DNA from: an uncultured Verrucomicrobiota bacterium
GTDB taxonomy: Bacteria > Verrucomicrobiota > Kiritimatiellia > CAJWTS01
Direction of reading: 5' to 3'
Assembly: GCA_913047795.1 (NCBI GenBank)
Contig: CAJWTS010000010.1
Coordinates: 1 to 64,000, forward strand
DNA: 64,000 nt
Of this stretch, positions 13,555 through 28,809 are shown piece after piece. The notes under the pieces were generated by a model, which was not told the DNA's origin, made no database searches, and saw nothing but the letters and a program-made list of their open reading frames with translations. The position numbers and the translations under genes were made by a program. Each line of letters opens with the position of its first letter. Within the stretch, counting starts at the first letter, position 1.

Positions 13555-14817
13555 ATGAGCATCGCGAGGCCTGCCATTTTCCTGGCGGACGGTGCCGCGA
13601 TACTGGCGATCCTGACCACCGCTGTCGTGTGGCTCCTGTCGCCGGTCGAAGGGAGTTTTTTATTTGGAAAATGGAGGGCATTGCTTGTCCTGCTGCCTAC
13701 GGCCTTCTGTGGTTTCCGCCTCGTGCTTGCCGTTCTTTTTTGCCGTAAGCCTGGTGGCAAGGTACCCGGAACGACCAAGGCGACGCTCGGTGCTTGCGTC
13801 TTGTTCGTGCTCCTGTTTGGCGCCGAGCAGGTGCTCGAATTCGCCGGCTACGAAAGACATTTTCCGCCGATACTGATTCGTGGCGAAACAGCCAATGATT
13901 CCGTGGAGGAACGCGCCGGTATCATCGCGGATCCGAGACTGCTCTTTCGCTTCAAGCCGGAGGCAGAGTTTCGAGGACGCAGAGTCAATCGGATTGGATT
14001 TCTGGGGCGCGAACCCGATGATCCCAGGACGGCGGGCGGACGGCGGGTTCTTTGCCTCGGCGACTCCGTCTCAGGGCAAGGCGTGCCACCCTATTCCGGT
14101 TACCTGCACGCGCAACTGACGAACGAGCCGCCGACGCAGGCTCGATGGGAGGCGATTAGCATGGCCGTCCACGGCTATACGACCTCGCAGGGGTTGCGGC
14201 TCTTCGTGGACGAGGGCGCGGCTCTGCGGCCGGACTTTGTCGTCGTTCTGTACGGGTGGAATGACCATTACCTGGCGTCCATCCCGGACAGTAACCGCAT
14301 GGCGCGCCACGTGGACGGCCTGCAGGGCATCCTCTACGCCATTTTGCAACGTAAACGCTTTGGCCAGTTTTTGCTCGCCACGGCCGGACCACTGGAATCT
14401 TTAGGGGTGCGCGAGAACAGGGACGGACTGCGCGTACCGCCCGACGAGTATCGACGCAACCTGGCCAGCCTGGTCGACGAAATACGTGGCACCGATGCCA
14501 TCCCTATTCTGATGACGTCGCCGCGTGCCGCGACCATCTCATCCCTGCTCGTTCGCAACAGACAGATCACCAGTGTCGAGGAAGGCATTCGATTGCATGA
14601 CGAGTACAACGCGACGTTGCGCGACGTCGCCGCGCAAACCGAAACGGTCATGATCGACCTCGCGCAGATATTTGCGGACGACGAACACCAGGCGTTCTTT
14701 TCGCGCGACGGAATTCACTTCACGCCCGACGAAGCGCGTCGTCGCATTGCCGAACACGTTCACGGGGCTGTTACCGATGTTTTGCGTGGCCGATCCGGCG
14801 ACCCCGCTCGTCAATAA
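13555..14817 (+). CDS. Membrane-anchored SGNH/GDSL-type hydrolase
   Basis: A 420-residue protein with three N-terminal hydrophobic segments (about 5-28, 40-62 and 76-95), followed by an SGNH hydrolase domain. Visible catalytic blocks are 'LCLGDSVSGQG' (nucleophile Ser of block I), 'VVVLYGWNDHYL' (block III, GxND-like) and 'SRDGIHFTPDE' near the C-terminus (block V, DxxH). Members of the fold remove acyl groups from sugars, lipids or polymers. The membrane anchor and the envelope-related surroundings suggest a de-O-acylase or esterase acting outside the cytoplasm; the substrate is not predictable. No clear Shine-Dalgarno sequence precedes the ATG. It stands alone between minus-strand and plus-strand units. 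Confidence 0.85.
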   Translation: MSIARPAIFLADGAAILAILTTAVVWLLSPVEGSFLFGKWRALLVLLPTAFCGFRLVLAVLFCRKPGGKVPGTTKATLGACVLFVLLFGAEQVLEFAGYERHFPPILIRGETANDSVEERAGIIADPRLLFRFKPEAEFRGRRVNRIGFLGREPDDPRTAGGRRVLCLGDSVSGQGVPPYSGYLHAQLTNEPPTQARWEAISMAVHGYTTSQGLRLFVDEGAALRPDFVVVLYGWNDHYLASIPDSNRMARHVDGLQGILYAILQRKRFGQFLLATAGPLESLGVRENRDGLRVPPDEYRRNLASLVDEIRGTDAIPILMTSPRAATISSLLVRNRQITSVEEGIRLHDEYNATLRDVAAQTETVMIDLAQIFADDEHQAFFSRDGIHFTPDEARRRIAEHVHGAVTDVLRGRSGDPARQ

Positions 14818-15012: not shown

Positions 15013-15750
15013 ATGGGAGCAGCATTCCAGTGGCCCGACGGCATCCGCGGTGCGGTCAGCCTGAGCTTTGACGACAGCCGTGGGGATACCCTTGATAACG
15101 GTATCGAGATCCTGGACCGTCACAACGTCAAGGCGACCTTCTACATTGTGGAATGCAGCTTCGAAAAGCGTGTGCAGGACTGGAAGGATGTCGCTGCATC
15201 AGGACACGAGCTGGGCAATCACTCCGTCTGCCATCCCTGTAGTGGAAACTTCGGGTTTTCCGACGACAATATGCTGGAACGCCACACGGTCGAGCAGATT
15301 GCGGCTGATATCGACGATGCGACGCGCAAAATCGAGGATACGTTCGGGCTCACCCCGCAAACATTCGCCTATCCCTGCGGACAGAAATTTGTTGGGCGTG
15401 GCCGTGGGACGGCCAGCTATGTGCCGGTGATCGCCGAGCGCTTTGTTGTTGGCCGCGGATTTCGCGATGAGTCCACGAATTTGCCGGTGGTGTGTGACCT
15501 CGCGCAGGTCTGCGGCGAAGACTTCGACTGCAAGACTTTCGACCAGGTCAAATCCATCCTGGAGCGCACGGCCGCGGCCGGACGCTGGGTGGTCTTCGTT
15601 GGACACGGTGTCGGCGACGGAGGCGGGCAGGTGGTCCTGCGCAGCATGCTCGATCAGCTTTGCGCGTACGTGAACGATCCCGACAACGGACTCTGGGCGG
15701 ATACGGTTGTCAACGTCGGCACCTACGTGCGTGACCACCAGGATCTATGA
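15013..15750 (+). CDS. Polysaccharide deacetylase family protein
   Basis: A 245-residue NodB-type (carbohydrate esterase 4) domain. Motif 1 is 'AVSLSFDDSRGDTLDNGI', with the catalytic/metal Asp pair. Motif 2 is 'HELGNHSVCHPC', supplying the two metal-binding His residues in an HxxxNHxxxHP arrangement. Later blocks include 'FAYPCGQKF' and 'WVVFVGHGVGD'. The family removes N- or O-acetyl groups from polysaccharides. No signal peptide is seen, so either it acts on a cytoplasmic sugar or the start is further upstream; the preceding 195 bases contain no better start. It is close to the SGNH hydrolase gene on the same strand. Confidence 0.9.
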   Translation: MGAAFQWPDGIRGAVSLSFDDSRGDTLDNGIEILDRHNVKATFYIVECSFEKRVQDWKDVAASGHELGNHSVCHPCSGNFGFSDDNMLERHTVEQIAADIDDATRKIEDTFGLTPQTFAYPCGQKFVGRGRGTASYVPVIAERFVVGRGFRDESTNLPVVCDLAQVCGEDFDCKTFDQVKSILERTAAAGRWVVFVGHGVGDGGGQVVLRSMLDQLCAYVNDPDNGLWADTVVNVGTYVRDHQDL

Positions 15751-16099: not shown

Positions 16100-16615
16100 T
16101 CAGAGCGCGAAACTGAGCCAGACGCTGAACTCGATGTCATTCCCTTCGAAGTCGCTGATGTCGGACCAGCTTTCGAAGACGTAGTTCGCCATGATCTGGA
16201 GGTCAAAACTGCTCGGGTCGCCCAGGTTAATACCGAACAGGAACTGCCAGTATAGGTCCGTCCACTCGCTGTCTGTATCCGTTTCAACATACGTCTGCAG
16301 GATGCCGAGCCCGGTGCGCCATTGCCGATCGATCGCCAGCAGGTTGAGCTGCGGTGTCAGGGCATAGTCAAGCAGCTCCGACCCGTCTAGTTCGGGCGTG
16401 TATGTCACCGCAAGCTGCCAGATCGCATTCTGATCGCGACCCTCGTATGCGAGTCCGTACGAAATATCATCGTCTACGAACGGAAGCTCGTTGAAGGCGC
16501 TGTGTTCGACGTGCTGCCGCGCGCCGATGCTGATTTTGCCGGCCGATTTTGCGAACGCGGGCGAGACCAGGCAGGCGACCAGAAGCGTCAGGATAATGGT
16601 TGTGTGTCGATTCAT
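16100..16615 (-). CDS. Exported protein, probably a small outer-membrane beta barrel
   Basis: A 171-residue protein with a clear Sec signal peptide (hydrophobic run 'TIILTLLVACLVSPAFA', cleavage after AFA). The mature chain alternates polar and hydrophobic residues with many aromatic girdle residues ('WQLAVTYTPEL', 'LYWQFLFGINL', 'IMANYVF') and ends 'SVWLSFAL'. This fits a transmembrane beta barrel of about eight strands, although the last residue is Leu and not the usual Phe. A GGAGGT-like box is not present. I do not recognise a named family. Confidence 0.75.
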   Translation of the reverse strand: MNRHTTIILTLLVACLVSPAFAKSAGKISIGARQHVEHSAFNELPFVDDDISYGLAYEGRDQNAIWQLAVTYTPELDGSELLDYALTPQLNLLAIDRQWRTGLGILQTYVETDTDSEWTDLYWQFLFGINLGDPSSFDLQIMANYVFESWSDISDFEGNDIEFSVWLSFAL

Positions 16616-16734: not shown

Positions 16735-19700
16735 CTAGTTGGATCGTGTAAGCTTGACGGCGATGTCGCGCGTCATCGGCGGGAGCGGAAGCGGATGAGG
16801 AGTTGTCCCGATCGTAAACGTGGTGCGTTCGGGGTCGGCATTCGACCACGTGTCCCAGAATTCGACCTCGTAATCGCCGGGTTCGAGCTTGAGCGACTGT
16901 AAGTCGACCCGCGCGGACGAGATGGTCCTGAACTGCGCGCCGGGCTCGTCCTCCAATGCGCGGAACCGGCCGGCACGGGCGAAGTAGGCTTCGCGACTGC
17001 GTACATGTCCATCGTTGCTTGTTTGCTTGTAGTAACGGATCACGCTTGCCGGCCCGTAGATCCAGAGGTAGGCCCGGTCGGTGGTCGCGCGCGCGCGGGC
17101 CCGCAGGATGCCGCGATCGCCGCCGACGCGCAGTTGCGGATAGTACCAAGATGTATTACGCAGGTCGATGCCGTCGATGAAGCGTGCGAAACGGGCCTGG
17201 TGTCGGTCGAGGCCCTTTTCGAACGTCAGGTTCCACCACCACGGCATGGGCGTCGCTGCGATCGGGAGCGTCCATCCCAGCCAGGGGCCGTCGTGCAACT
17301 CGTGCGCGAGCCAGGCCATGTCGCCGCCGTCGGAAAAACCGCCGAATTCCTCGATGATCGCCGGCTTGCCGTAACGCGAGAGATTCCACGCAATGCGTTT
17401 CCATGCGCGCGGCATCCCCTCGCCCCAGTTGTAGAGCGGAGCCTGCACGTAGGTGATGCCCGGCAGTCGCCAGATCTCAGGCTCGCCCGTTGACGTTGTG
17501 AACTCGGTTGAGACCAGGTGGTCGCCGCTGTCCACGCTGGCGAGATACGCAATCATGTCTTGGTGCCAGGCGCGAAGCGTCGGCACGTCTTTGTTGACGA
17601 TGTTGGCCTCGATCCAGAGTGTCCATCCGAACAGGGCCGGCAGGGCCCCGTAACGCGCGGCAAGGTAGCGATAGCGATTCTTGAAAACGGCGATCATTGC
17701 CGGGTCGGTGAAGACGTCCTCGGGATTCTCCAGGGGGCCGCCGTTCTCGCTGTTGAACGGATTGATCGCCCACTTCGAGTCGTAGGCCCGCGTGTAGGGG
17801 CCGTGTCCACTCAGTGCGAGTTCGAGACGGACGCCTCTTGTGTGGGCGGCCGCGAGCAGGTGATCAATGCGCCAGGCGTTTTGAAGATTGTAAGCCCCTG
17901 GCCCTTGGTATCCCGGCCAGTCGCGGCGCCATTCGAGCCCGCACCACGACGGCATCAGCCACATGCGACCCATCGTGATGCTGGCGGTCCGCATGCGATC
18001 CAGGAAGCCCTCTATGACGTAGGTGCCGCGTTGCCTGAGTGGTTGCTCGATCGGGCCGAGGTTTAGGATCTTGTCGTCGTCGGGCGAGCGAATGTTGAGC
18101 GCGATGGGATAGAAGAACTCGCCGTTATCGAACTCGAAGTGCCGGCCGTCCCGCGCGGCACGCACGAATCCGCGGCGGGGCGAAGGCGTGGCGGTCAGCG
18201 TATGTTCATCCGTCTGGAACGTGTCGCCGAATACGTCCCGTCCCTCGACGTGCCAGCGATAGGTGCCTGGCCGGCGCGGGCAATACCGCACGGCCCAGTA
18301 GGGCGGGCCGACGGGGTCCAGTCGCTCGGCGGCCTGCAGTAGCCGGCGCGTGTAGTCGCGCGCATAATACGCGGGGACCCGGCGTATGTTTCCATCGGGA
18401 TCCGTGAAAACGCCCCACGCATCGAACTGGGCGGGGTCGAACGGGTTTTCGTACTCGCGTCCCGTCGCGAAGCGAACGGTTGCCGGCTCATATTGCTCGA
18501 CGGCGTCGGGTGCCGACAGGATGCGGGGTGCGAGGGCGACGCGCGCGGCATCGCCCGAGGCGACGACGCCGTGGATCCGCACAAAATCCAGGCGATCCGA
18601 TTCGCCGTACACCTGTACGCCGACGGCGCGTACGCGGCGCAGGCACCACGGACCCCAGGGTAAGTCCTGCTCGACGGCGTTCCAGCCCTCTTGTAGCGGC
18701 AGGCTGATCGACAGTGAAGCCGGCGTGCCGGCAGCCTGGATGCCGTCCACGATGCGTTCGAACCATTCGCCGTCGCCGACTTTGAGAAAAACCCTCAGAC
18801 GCGCGACATTGATACGACGTGTATCTCTGCTCGGCGCCCAGACGGGGAGAACCTCGATGCGCAGGGTTTCGCGCCCGAACCATGATTCATCCAGGGCGAG
18901 CTCTTGCTCGCCCTGCGGGTTCTCCATGCGAATGGCCGCCAACCGGAATCGTCGCGGCAGATCAAGCTGTCGCGGCATGTCCCATGCGGCGTATGCGATC
19001 GCCAGGACGGCGATGAGCAGCAGGGCCGCGCTGATCCATCCGTGCCCGATGCGCGACGACGGCACGGCGCCGTTCGCGGGAGGTATTTCCGGATGACTAC
19101 CGCCTCGATGGGGTGTCTTTTCCCACTTGAACGGGAACGTGAAAAACTGAAACACACCGCGCCATGCACCGAGGCTGACCATGATCCAATAAATTGGCAT
19201 CAGGAGGGCGAGTGGCAGCAGGTCGTAGCGGCGCCGCCGGGCGACGCCGATGATGTGCACGATGACGAAGAAGATATTGAACAAAGCGAAGGCCACGCTG
19301 CCGACCAACAGGCCAGCCGTTGCCGGCACGTAGACACTGTACAACGGCCATCGAAAAATCAGCCATGCCCCTGCAACGATCCAGCAGATCGGGTTGATCA
19401 GCAGGCTCATGACCTGGCCGCCGACGACCACGAGCATGAGCGACCATTTTAAGAGGCCGAGTTGCCGGATACCGGCGCCGGGGTCGCGCGTGTGGTAGAG
19501 ATGGGTTTGCCAGTAGCCCTTCATCCAGCGTGATCGCTGCCGTACCCAGGGGCCGAATTGCTCAACGGCCTCCTCCCACGTCGTCGAATCAAGAATGCGG
19601 GTACGGCCCCCGGAACGCTCGATGCGGATTCCCAGGTCGCAGTCTTCGGTGACGTTGTAGGGATCCCATCCGTGCAGTGCACGTAGCGCCTCGATGCGAA

Positions 19701-20475
19701 AATGATTCGAGGTTCCGCCGAGTGGAATTGGCGCACGCAACGCATGCAGGCCGGGCAGGTAGAGGTCGAACCACGCCGTGTACTCGATCGTGAACCAGCG
19801 TGTCAGGACGTTACGGCGCGAGTTGTAGTAGTTGAGATGCGCTTGCAGGCAGACGACTCCAGGTTCCGCGCGCGCAAAAGCGGCCACCGCCTTGCGGAGC
19901 TGATCGGGCTCGGGACGATCCTCTGCGTCGAATACGACCAGGTAGTCCCCACGTGCATGCGCCAGGCCGGCATTGCACGCGCGGGGTTTCGTCTTCGGCT
20001 CGCCGTGCGGGACGACCACAACTTCTAGCCAGGGTGGCGTATCCAGATTTTCTGCCGCGCGCGCGGTCTCATCGTCATCCGCCTCGATCAATAGCTTCAC
20101 GTCCAGTTTGGACGGCGGGTAATCAAGCGCGTCAATCGCCGCGACGAGCTCGGGGAGCATATCGGCTTCGTGGTACAGGGGAAGCAGCACGGTGTAGACC
20201 GGCAGATCGTTATCGGCGATTGCCATGGTATCGCCTTCGATCGAGTGACGGGCAAGCAGGCCGGTCATGACGGCCAGAACGCGGACGCAGATCACGGACC
20301 CGTAGAGCACAAAGACAGATAGGCTGAACAGCCAGAAGAACGTTTGCAGGTCGATGACGGCGCAGGCGACCATGCCGAGCAAGAGCCCCAGGTAGGCGGC
20401 GCGCTGGGGACCCGACCAGCGTGTCTGCGCACCCGGTCGACTCGTCCCGTTCCAGTATGGATGGCTACTATTCAC
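16735..20475 (-). CDS. Membrane GT2 glycosyltransferase fused to a periplasmic DUF5060/glycoside hydrolase module
   Basis: A 1246-residue fusion. Residues 27-72 form two TM helices. Residues about 90-330 are a processive, cellulose-synthase-like GT2 domain with DDD at 133-135, DAED at 183-186, TED at 277-279 and QRSRW at 313-317. Three to four TM helices follow (343-436). A further TM helix at about 479-498 leads to an exported half: beta domains (510-650), a DUF5060-like module (about 660-765, 'NPFDPAQF', 'PAYYARDY', 'PVGPPYWAVRY') and a TIM-barrel hydrolase-like domain (770-1100). Probable catalytic Glu residues are E956 in 'WTLWIEANI' and E1042 or E1043 in 'PAIIEEFGG'. It thus seems to combine polymer synthesis/export with cleavage or trimming. 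The start is GTG with GGTGAG upstream. It is transcribed alone. The order of domains is directly visible; the substrate is unknown. Confidence 0.9.
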   Translation of the reverse strand: MNSSHPYWNGTSRPGAQTRWSGPQRAAYLGLLLGMVACAVIDLQTFFWLFSLSVFVLYGSVICVRVLAVMTGLLARHSIEGDTMAIADNDLPVYTVLLPLYHEADMLPELVAAIDALDYPPSKLDVKLLIEADDDETARAAENLDTPPWLEVVVVPHGEPKTKPRACNAGLAHARGDYLVVFDAEDRPEPDQLRKAVAAFARAEPGVVCLQAHLNYYNSRRNVLTRWFTIEYTAWFDLYLPGLHALRAPIPLGGTSNHFRIEALRALHGWDPYNVTEDCDLGIRIERSGGRTRILDSTTWEEAVEQFGPWVRQRSRWMKGYWQTHLYHTRDPGAGIRQLGLLKWSLMLVVVGGQVMSLLINPICWIVAGAWLIFRWPLYSVYVPATAGLLVGSVAFALFNIFFVIVHIIGVARRRRYDLLPLALLMPIYWIMVSLGAWRGVFQFFTFPFKWEKTPHRGGSHPEIPPANGAVPSSRIGHGWISAALLLIAVLAIAYAAWDMPRQLDLPRRFRLAAIRMENPQGEQELALDESWFGRETLRIEVLPVWAPSRDTRRINVARLRVFLKVGDGEWFERIVDGIQAAGTPASLSISLPLQEGWNAVEQDLPWGPWCLRRVRAVGVQVYGESDRLDFVRIHGVVASGDAARVALAPRILSAPDAVEQYEPATVRFATGREYENPFDPAQFDAWGVFTDPDGNIRRVPAYYARDYTRRLLQAAERLDPVGPPYWAVRYCPRRPGTYRWHVEGRDVFGDTFQTDEHTLTATPSPRRGFVRAARDGRHFEFDNGEFFYPIALNIRSPDDDKILNLGPIEQPLRQRGTYVIEGFLDRMRTASITMGRMWLMPSWCGLEWRRDWPGYQGPGAYNLQNAWRIDHLLAAAHTRGVRLELALSGHGPYTRAYDSKWAINPFNSENGGPLENPEDVFTDPAMIAVFKNRYRYLAARYGALPALFGWTLWIEANIVNKDVPTLRAWHQDMIAYLASVDSGDHLVSTEFTTSTGEPEIWRLPGITYVQAPLYNWGEGMPRAWKRIAWNLSRYGKPAIIEEFGGFSDGGDMAWLAHELHDGPWLGWTLPIAATPMPWWWNLTFEKGLDRHQARFARFIDGIDLRNTSWYYPQLRVGGDRGILRARARATTDRAYLWIYGPASVIRYYKQTSNDGHVRSREAYFARAGRFRALEDEPGAQFRTISSARVDLQSLKLEPGDYEVEFWDTWSNADPERTTFTIGTTPHPLPLPPMTRDIAVKLTRSN

Positions 20476-26493: not shown

Positions 26494-28809
26494 ATGAAAA
26501 AGTCCGCAACGAAACCGGACTCGCGCCTGGATTTGGCAAAGATCGCGCCCGGTGCACATTTCCACATGGTTGGCATCTGCGGCGTCGGCATGGCCGGCGT
26601 GGCGGCGCTCCTCGCTGCGCGGGGCTACCGCGTAACGGGCTGCGACAGCGCACCGAATCACCTGGCCGACTGGCTCCGCGCGCGTGCGATCGAGGTGCAC
26701 GAGGGGCATGATGCGGCGCATCTTGATCCGCCGGTCGATGTCGTCGTGCGTAGCACGGCGGTGCTTGCGCAGGCGCCGGAGATCGTTGCTGCGGACGGGG
26801 CCGGCGTCCCGGTTTACCAGCGTGGCGAGGTTCTGCCCGCGCTACTCGAGGGGCGGACCTCCATCGTCGTGACCGGGACGCACGGCAAATCGACGACGGC
26901 GGGGTTTGTTGCGCAGATGCTCGATCACGCGGATTGTGCTCCCGACTACTGCCTCGGTTGCGAGGTGCCCGCGCTTGAGGGTGTGGCTGCCGGTCGGGAC
27001 AGCGATGTGATTGTGGCCGAAGGGGACGAGAGCGACGGAACGATTCGACGGTATGCACCCGATATCCTGGTGGTGACCAATGTCGAATTCGACCACATGG
27101 AGCATTTTGACGATGTCGCGGCCTTTGAGGAATGTTTTCGTTGTGTCGCGGCCCGTACACGGCGCTGCGTTGTTTGTTGTGCGGACGATGCACGTGCCGT
27201 TTCCGTCTGTTCCGGTGCGAAAGAGGTGTTGACGTATGCGCTGGATTCCGTTGCTGACGTTCGGGGCATTCGTGTTGAGGGCAGCGAGGAGCTGATTGTG
27301 CAGCGGGGCACGACGCGGCTGGGGGCATTGACTCTGCCGGCGCCCGGACGGCACAACGCGCTGAATGCCCTCGCGGCCGTGACCGCCGGTCTTGCATACG
27401 GGCTCGATTTTGAAGCGATCGCCGCCGGGCTGGCCACCGCCGAGTTGCCGCGGCGACGTTTCGAGACGCTGATCGAAGCCGGCGATCTGCGCGTCGTCTC
27501 CGACTATGCACACCATCCGACCGAGATCCGTGCCTTATTGGATATGACGCAGCACCTGTCGTTTGAACGCCGCCTGGTGGTCTACCAGCCGCATCGCTAC
27601 ACCCGCACCCGCGCGCTGGCCGATGACTTCCCGGCGGCATTCGACGGCGCCGACGAGGTTATTCTGACGCCGGTTTATGCGGCGTGCGAGGAACCGCTGC
27701 GTGGCGGCACTTCGTGGGACCTCTACGCCTGCTTCCGGCGGCTCTCGGGCGTGCGCGTTTCGATGGCCGACTCACTGGAGCAGGCCGAGGCATACGTTCG
27801 GAGGATCTTGAGGCCCGGCGACCTGTTGTTGATCGTAGGGGCGGGAGACGTGGAGACGATTGGACATCATCTCCGCGAAGATCTGGCCGTGCAGGATCCG
27901 CCCGCCCTCAATCCCGTGCCGGGACTGCTCGCCGGCATCCGGCAATTGGCGTTGGCGGACACCGCGATTCGGCAAGACGAGCCCCTGGGGCCGAAAACGA
28001 CGCTCAAGGTGGGCGGGCGGGCCGATATCCTGCTCGATGTCGGCGTCGAGCAGGATATCGCATCTATTCTCGGCTGGGCTCATGCGGGGGACGTACCGGT
28101 CCATATTATGGGGGCGGGCAGCAACGTGCTGGTCTCGGACCTGGGGGTCCGGGGGCTCGTCGTGCGCTTGATCGGGAACCCGTTTCGGGAAATCGAAGGC
28201 GGCACCGACGAAGTCCGGGTTGGGGCCCGTGTTTCGAACCGTGCGCTGCTGTCCTGGGCCGAGAATAATGATTGTCAGGGTTTCGATTTTCTGGAAGGAA
28301 TTCCGGGGACCGTTGGCGGTGCGATGCGAATGAATGCCGGTGCCTGGGGCGGCGAAACGGCGAACCGGGTCAAGTGGGTACGATGCCTCGCCATGGACGG
28401 CAAGGCTTTCACGTTCAATCGCGCGGAACTGGACTTTCAGTATCGTGGGTGCCCTGTCCTGGCCGACAAGATCGTGGTGCAAGTTGGGTTCTCAATGTCG
28501 GGCGCGAACGGAGCCGATGTTGATCGCGAAGAGATCGCGGCTCGGCGCGCATGGTGGAAGCAGATTCGCTCGGCTGGATCGGTGTTTAGGAATCCGGATG
28601 GCGCGGTTGCCGGCGAGTTGATCGAGCGCGCCGGATTGAAGGGATGTACCGTTGGTGGCGCGCGCATATTTGAGACGCACGCCAACGTGATCGCCACGGT
28701 AGACGGCGCGCGGGCGGCGGATGTGCGTGCCTTGATTGAACGGGCGCGCAGAGACGTAAAGGACCAGTTCGATGTGGAGCTTCAGCCGGAGGTGGTGTTC
28801 TTGCAGTGA
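26494..28809 (+). CDS. murC-murB: Fused UDP-MurNAc-L-alanine ligase / UDP-MurNAc dehydrogenase (MurC-MurB)
   Basis: A 771-residue bifunctional peptidoglycan precursor enzyme. The MurC half (about 1-465) has 'HMVGICGVGMAGVAALLAARG', the ATP loop 'VTGTHGKSTTAGF', 'VVAEGDESDGTI', 'VTNVEFDHMEHF' and the C-terminal-domain motif 'YQPHRYTRT'. The MurB half (about 480-771) has the FAD-binding 'NTTLKVGG'-equivalent 'KTTLKVGGRADI', 'HIMGAGSNVLVSD' and 'GIPGTVGGAMRMNAGAWG', with the catalytic Ser696 in 'AGSVFRNP' and the proton-shuttle Glu in 'LQPEVVFLQ' at the end. Both active sites look intact. It makes UDP-MurNAc and adds L-Ala in the cytoplasm. The MurB stop overlaps the ddl start. Confidence 0.95.
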   Translation: MKKSATKPDSRLDLAKIAPGAHFHMVGICGVGMAGVAALLAARGYRVTGCDSAPNHLADWLRARAIEVHEGHDAAHLDPPVDVVVRSTAVLAQAPEIVAADGAGVPVYQRGEVLPALLEGRTSIVVTGTHGKSTTAGFVAQMLDHADCAPDYCLGCEVPALEGVAAGRDSDVIVAEGDESDGTIRRYAPDILVVTNVEFDHMEHFDDVAAFEECFRCVAARTRRCVVCCADDARAVSVCSGAKEVLTYALDSVADVRGIRVEGSEELIVQRGTTRLGALTLPAPGRHNALNALAAVTAGLAYGLDFEAIAAGLATAELPRRRFETLIEAGDLRVVSDYAHHPTEIRALLDMTQHLSFERRLVVYQPHRYTRTRALADDFPAAFDGADEVILTPVYAACEEPLRGGTSWDLYACFRRLSGVRVSMADSLEQAEAYVRRILRPGDLLLIVGAGDVETIGHHLREDLAVQDPPALNPVPGLLAGIRQLALADTAIRQDEPLGPKTTLKVGGRADILLDVGVEQDIASILGWAHAGDVPVHIMGAGSNVLVSDLGVRGLVVRLIGNPFREIEGGTDEVRVGARVSNRALLSWAENNDCQGFDFLEGIPGTVGGAMRMNAGAWGGETANRVKWVRCLAMDGKAFTFNRAELDFQYRGCPVLADKIVVQVGFSMSGANGADVDREEIAARRAWWKQIRSAGSVFRNPDGAVAGELIERAGLKGCTVGGARIFETHANVIATVDGARAADVRALIERARRDVKDQFDVELQPEVVFLQ

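Follow-up and report, generated by a model that had tools for sequence, protein, structure and literature searches.

A processive GT2 synthase and a DUF5060/GH5-type hydrolase joined in one polypeptide of a Kiritimatiellia bacterium

The window, a stretch of 64,000 nucleotides from an uncultured member of the Kiritimatiellia, carries on its minus strand a gene (16735..20475) in which a membrane glycosyltransferase of family GT2 and a predicted glycoside hydrolase share one reading frame of 1,246 codons. The frame starts with GTG at 20475, runs without an internal stop to a TAG at 16735 and encodes a 1,246-aa protein. From the N to the C terminus this consists of a processive GT2 synthase, an extra transmembrane (TM) helix, a β-domain, a DUF5060 domain, a TIM barrel and a C-terminal β-domain. 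Directly downstream lies the gene for a 171-aa protein with a signal-peptide-like start (16100..16615, minus strand). It matches no Pfam family, was not found next to other fusions and, judging by its sequence, is possibly a small outer-membrane barrel. A NodB-like polysaccharide deacetylase (15013..15750; Pfam PF01522) and a GDSL/SGNH acyl-hydrolase (13555..14817; Pfam PF13472) are positional neighbours encoded on the plus strand.

The synthase half, like all parts of the fusion encoded on the minus strand, opens with two TM helices (residues 27-74; 20254..20397) apparent from hydropathy and as AlphaFold helices. They are followed by the processive GT2 catalytic domain (residues about 92-330; 19486..20202), which is delimited by Pfam, invariant alignment columns and a profile match to BcsA. 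The Pfam GT2 domains fall at residues 179-373 and 94-320 with E values of 1e-24 to 2e-25, above the curated cut-offs; NCBIfam gives sub-threshold matches only, to PgaC, CelA and other processive GT2s. The BcsA cellulose synthase family TIGR03030 is not reached (44.6 bits against a curated cut-off of 699.1), and a Foldseek search returns BcsA and hyaluronan synthases. The earlier note had recognized a processive GT2 by the motifs DDD, DAED, TED and QRSRW. These correspond to D133-D134, D183-A-E185-D186, TED276-278 (E277-D278) and QRSRW313-317 (Q313-R-x-R-W317), and the D, DxD, TED and Q(Q/R)xRW motifs are invariant in 20 unfused synthases and in all fused rows that cover them. The assignment thus holds except for D135, the third aspartate of DDD, which is not conserved among the aligned relatives. 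By hydropathy and in the model, the GT-A domain is flanked on either side by TM helices, the C-terminal set being TM/interface helices at residues 341-446 (19138..19455). Close behind is a W-E-K-T-x-H motif (residues 451-456; 19108..19125) that is invariant in 23 aligned synthases and near which the unfused synthases end. It may correspond to the BcsA gating loop, by analogy with which it would be best placed in the cytoplasm. The donor sugar is not fixed by the GT2 sequence; the first part of the synthase half matches PcManGT, deposited as a mannosyltransferase, which may be taken as a faint sign of mannose use.

One more TM segment had been proposed after the synthase, and both hydropathy and AlphaFold place a helix at residues 479-503 (18967..19041). 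It occurs in fused proteins only and is predicted to lead outside. The β-strand domain that follows in the model (residues about 520-640; 18556..18918) is common to the unfused hydrolases, whose matches to the window protein begin near residues 530-560. The DUF5060 domain (residues 659-744; 18244..18501), likewise named beforehand, scores 39.8 bits with Pfam PF16586 against a cut-off of 27.2 (E 5.5e-10). The suspected TIM-barrel-like hydrolase is borne out as a GH5-type barrel (residues about 775-1105; 17161..18153) by its match to ManDH5, the nearest solved structure (E 1.7e-63 by sequence), and by a Foldseek search with the pLDDT-89 model, in which ManDH5 matches the hydrolase half with E 1e-38 and a TM-score of 0.86 over the chain. 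Sequence identity to ManDH5 is about 25%, so the substrate of the hydrolase may differ. A C-terminal domain with β-strands (residues about 1112-1244; 16744..17142) completes the chain in the model. The AlphaFold model spans residues 26-1225 and drew on an alignment of 49 rows, made up of window and locus proteins; its mean pLDDT is 89.2 and its pTM 0.65. The individual domains are good, and the pTM leaves open how the synthase and hydrolase halves, whose mutual placement is uncertain, are oriented relative to each other.

ManDH5 (PDB 9gmj, 9gpa, 9gpc, 9gpe and 9gpg) is deposited as a GH5-family β-D-mannanase of Dictyoglomus thermophilum. It shares with the hydrolase half the succession of DUF5060, GH5-type barrel and C-terminal domain, but it is an enzyme of 568 residues with neither TM helices nor a glycosyltransferase in the solved chain. 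Its depositors made an E303Q mutant for substrate complexes and solved it with mannotetraose; in the native enzyme, mannobiose was found after co-crystallization with mannopentaose. No informative paper on DUF5060 or its PDB entries was found in a literature search limited to papers outside subscription. E956 of the fused protein (17608..17610) aligns with ManDH5 E303, and E1043 (17347..17349), placed by alignment with ManDH5 and relatives, is present in every fused or separate hydrolase row covering that column. The two are predicted from these alignments to be the catalytic pair, with E956 as acid/base and E1043 as nucleophile. The earlier note had left the choice between E1042 and E1043 as partner of E956; E1042 is rejected, because each of the 18 separate hydrolases compared has Thr at that position.

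The joining of the two halves is not a chance event of this assembly. Full-length homologues of the same architecture with 46-48% identity are encoded in two Planctomycetota assemblies (L003, 1,252 aa; L004, 1,249 aa), and a third is split over two contigs (L005/L006). Wider searches added second copies in the genomes of L003 and L004 (L115 and L116, respectively) as well as L054, L117 and L118/L119. In total there are nine distinct fused genes in seven genomes, the window included, and five of them are complete (window, L003, L004, L115 and L116); L112 is a probable additional copy. The added TM helix is found in all fused proteins long enough to cover the junction, some 20-60 residues past the W-EKT-H motif, and in none of the unfused synthases. 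A sequencing error joining two genes had been named in advance as the finding that would overturn the fusion. The draft state of the assembly (132 contigs) would allow for an assembly or sequencing error, but such an explanation retains next to no probability in view of the homologues elsewhere and of the third-position G+C, which is high, and codon-position composition, which continues steadily across the GT2/hydrolase junction. The fusion is therefore real. Two further long frames were considered and not counted. L070 (1,209 aa) was left out because high GC content seems to have kept its first 740 codons open by accident and a GDSL gene of the operon described below occupies the same stretch in another frame. 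G348 (1,593 aa) proved on re-reading to be two separate ORFs.

In the class to which the window belongs, the two halves are usually encoded separately, with lengths of about 460-580 aa for the GT2 and about 750-1,040 aa for the hydrolase. Nearly all of these unfused hydrolases begin with a signal-peptide-like segment. In three (L048, L050 and L069) no such segment is seen close to the earliest possible start, the position of which may have been set wrongly. Because its unfused relatives carry signal peptides, the hydrolase half of the fusion is strongly inferred to lie outside the cell membrane, with the synthase inside, and the added TM helix would replace the signal peptide of the unfused enzyme. 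A cytoplasmic hydrolase, which the earlier note had named as a second finding that would overturn its reading, is unlikely on the same grounds. The two activities would then very probably sit on opposite sides of the membrane in one chain, as had been suggested, although the charges around the window's extra helix disagree, there being more Arg after it than before, contrary to the positive-inside rule. Since the TM segment of the fusion stands in the place of the signal peptide of the unfused hydrolase and, in the window protein, ends in AYAA, it might alternatively be a cleaved signal sequence, the mature products being two proteins in equal amounts. This is very improbable: the fused proteins share no conserved cleavage motif, and at about 19-25 residues their hydrophobic helix is longer than a typical signal-peptide core.

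The window's genome has the fusion on contig C10 and, in addition, an unfused pair of genes 4.2 kb apart on contig C45. The split genes (L016 in the same genome, and L017) represent the same halves, with identities to the fusion of about 45-53% (GT2) and about 30% (hydrolase), but they differ in being two genes, in the signal peptide of the hydrolase and in the placement of the GT2 in a conserved operon. This operon comprises a GDSL/PKD protein, a 495-aa polytopic membrane protein and a coiled-coil protein, often with the hydrolase nearby. It recurs across the class (L016:9053-17691 on G000:C45, L017, L046-L052 and others) and is apparently unnamed; in a neighbourhood comparison none of these partners was found beside the fusions. 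Separate halves lie within 15 kb of each other in 25 of the 84 genomes having both (mostly 1.4-4.8 kb apart), a figure that is a lower bound because many assemblies are fragmented. Two matches were obtained in all but about 10 of the 82 genomes of the phylum with a strong match. The within-family distances of GT2 and hydrolase correlate with r 0.925, which partly reflects shared descent and may mirror species history only. Variants of the separate genes also occur. At L086:920-6531 (G242), the gene of a 1,407-aa DUF5060 hydrolase overlaps a following GT2 gene by four bases, the order being opposite to that of the fusion, and the two are possibly translationally coupled. In L053 and L055-L059 the DUF5060 hydrolases have 1,270-1,390 aa and contain, further towards the N terminus, a module resembling a degenerate duplicate.

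In phylogenetic trees, the fused synthases form one clade (support 100/98), as do the fused hydrolases (100/97) with the exception of L116. This protein (L116:2984-6775) groups with the other fusions by its synthase half and not clearly so by its hydrolase half. A second, independent fusion could account for the position of the L116 hydrolase outside the fused clade; against it, the test does not reject a grouping of all fused hydrolases as a single clade (p 0.126), and one fusion event remains the simplest reading of the trees.

It is fairly probable, from sequence and model, that the fused protein is a single-chain enzyme that makes, exports and trims a polysaccharide. The N-terminal GT2 half would polymerize a nucleotide-sugar in the cytoplasm, and the growing chain would pass through the TM channel of the synthase itself. 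The extra TM helix would carry the polypeptide across the membrane, so that the DUF5060 domain and the β-mannanase-like GH5-type barrel would sit outside, near the channel. Thus tethered, the barrel would cut the emerging polymer, with E956 as acid/base and E1043 as nucleophile, and so determine how long the chain becomes or release it. That the hydrolase half acts on the product of its own synthase half is inferred only. Alternatively, the hydrolase would target another polymer, environmental mannan or one of the cell's own envelope, and the fusion would serve for membrane anchoring only. Several fusion genomes do encode many further DUF5060 hydrolases, and in many genomes the separate halves lie on different contigs. 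However, the separate halves co-occur and have a conserved neighbourhood, and the only two DUF5060 proteins of the window genome are both linked to a GT2, which makes this alternative unlikely.

The polymer made and trimmed by such an enzyme is probably β-linked. The leading guess, and an indirect one, is that it contains mannose, as β-mannan or glucomannan, because of the likeness to ManDH5, the presence of a GDP-mannose pyrophosphorylase-like gene in the window genome and the finding of no PF00150 GH5 enzyme there in a profile search. The fullest form of the proposal, in which a bacterial β-mannan (or glucomannan) synthase and a mannanase form one self-trimming chain that arose by one fusion of a widespread gene pair, is tentatively put forward as a possibility. 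Retaining barrels of the GH-A type can also transglycosylate, and the outer domain might accordingly be a transglycosidase that re-joins, cyclizes or attaches the emerging chain. This is what has been proposed for the GH17 domain of NdvB, and the NdvB Orphan is a precedent with the same tethering (PMC10237404). ManDH5, the nearest relative with a solved structure, is called a mannanase, and the recovery of mannobiose from mannopentaose is hydrolysis, which argues against transglycosylation and leaves it a low though appreciable probability.

Hydrolases are paired with synthases in other systems as well. BcsA and BcsZ combine a processive GT2 with a TM channel and a glycosidase functionally paired with it, as in the fusion, but are separate proteins. 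In addition, BcsA contains a PilZ domain and exceeds the window synthase in its number of TM helices, and BcsZ belongs to GH8. The earlier note knew of no described enzyme that unites the two activities. One precedent exists in the pseudomonad NdvB or BcsA-like "Orphan", a single polypeptide that holds a periplasmic GH17 and a cytoplasmic GT2 with TM helices between them; the emerging chain is predicted to be processed after synthesis, and cyclic β-glucan is the proposed product (PMC10237404). The principle of a GT2-glycosidase fusion is therefore already known, and both proteins consist of a TIM-barrel glycosidase and a processive GT2 in one polypeptide. Unlike the fusion described here, the Orphan uses GH17 and not DUF5060/GH5, has the glycosidase at its N terminus and the synthase at its C terminus, and comes from another phylum. 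The fused protein itself has no Pfam match to GH17, its glycosidase being C-terminal and of the DUF5060 type. The GT2-then-DUF5060/GH5 arrangement thus differs from the Orphan in family combination, order and lineage. The literature search, with the scope given above, found no description of GT2-GH5 fusions or of bacterial mannan synthases.

Many polysaccharide systems built on a synthase also depend on a hydrolase, the role of which is unclear because synthase and hydrolase are distinct molecules. Covalently fused, and with their split counterparts encoded in the same genome, the two enzymes allow this role to be tested within one protein. The fusion also predicts a joint function for the widespread and unnamed pair of GT2 and DUF5060 hydrolase genes, and it is a candidate for a bacterial pathway to a β-mannan-like polymer. 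Elsewhere in the window a 771-aa polypeptide (26494-28809, plus strand) combines MurC and MurB, and the gene for a D-Ala-D-Ala ligase comes next.
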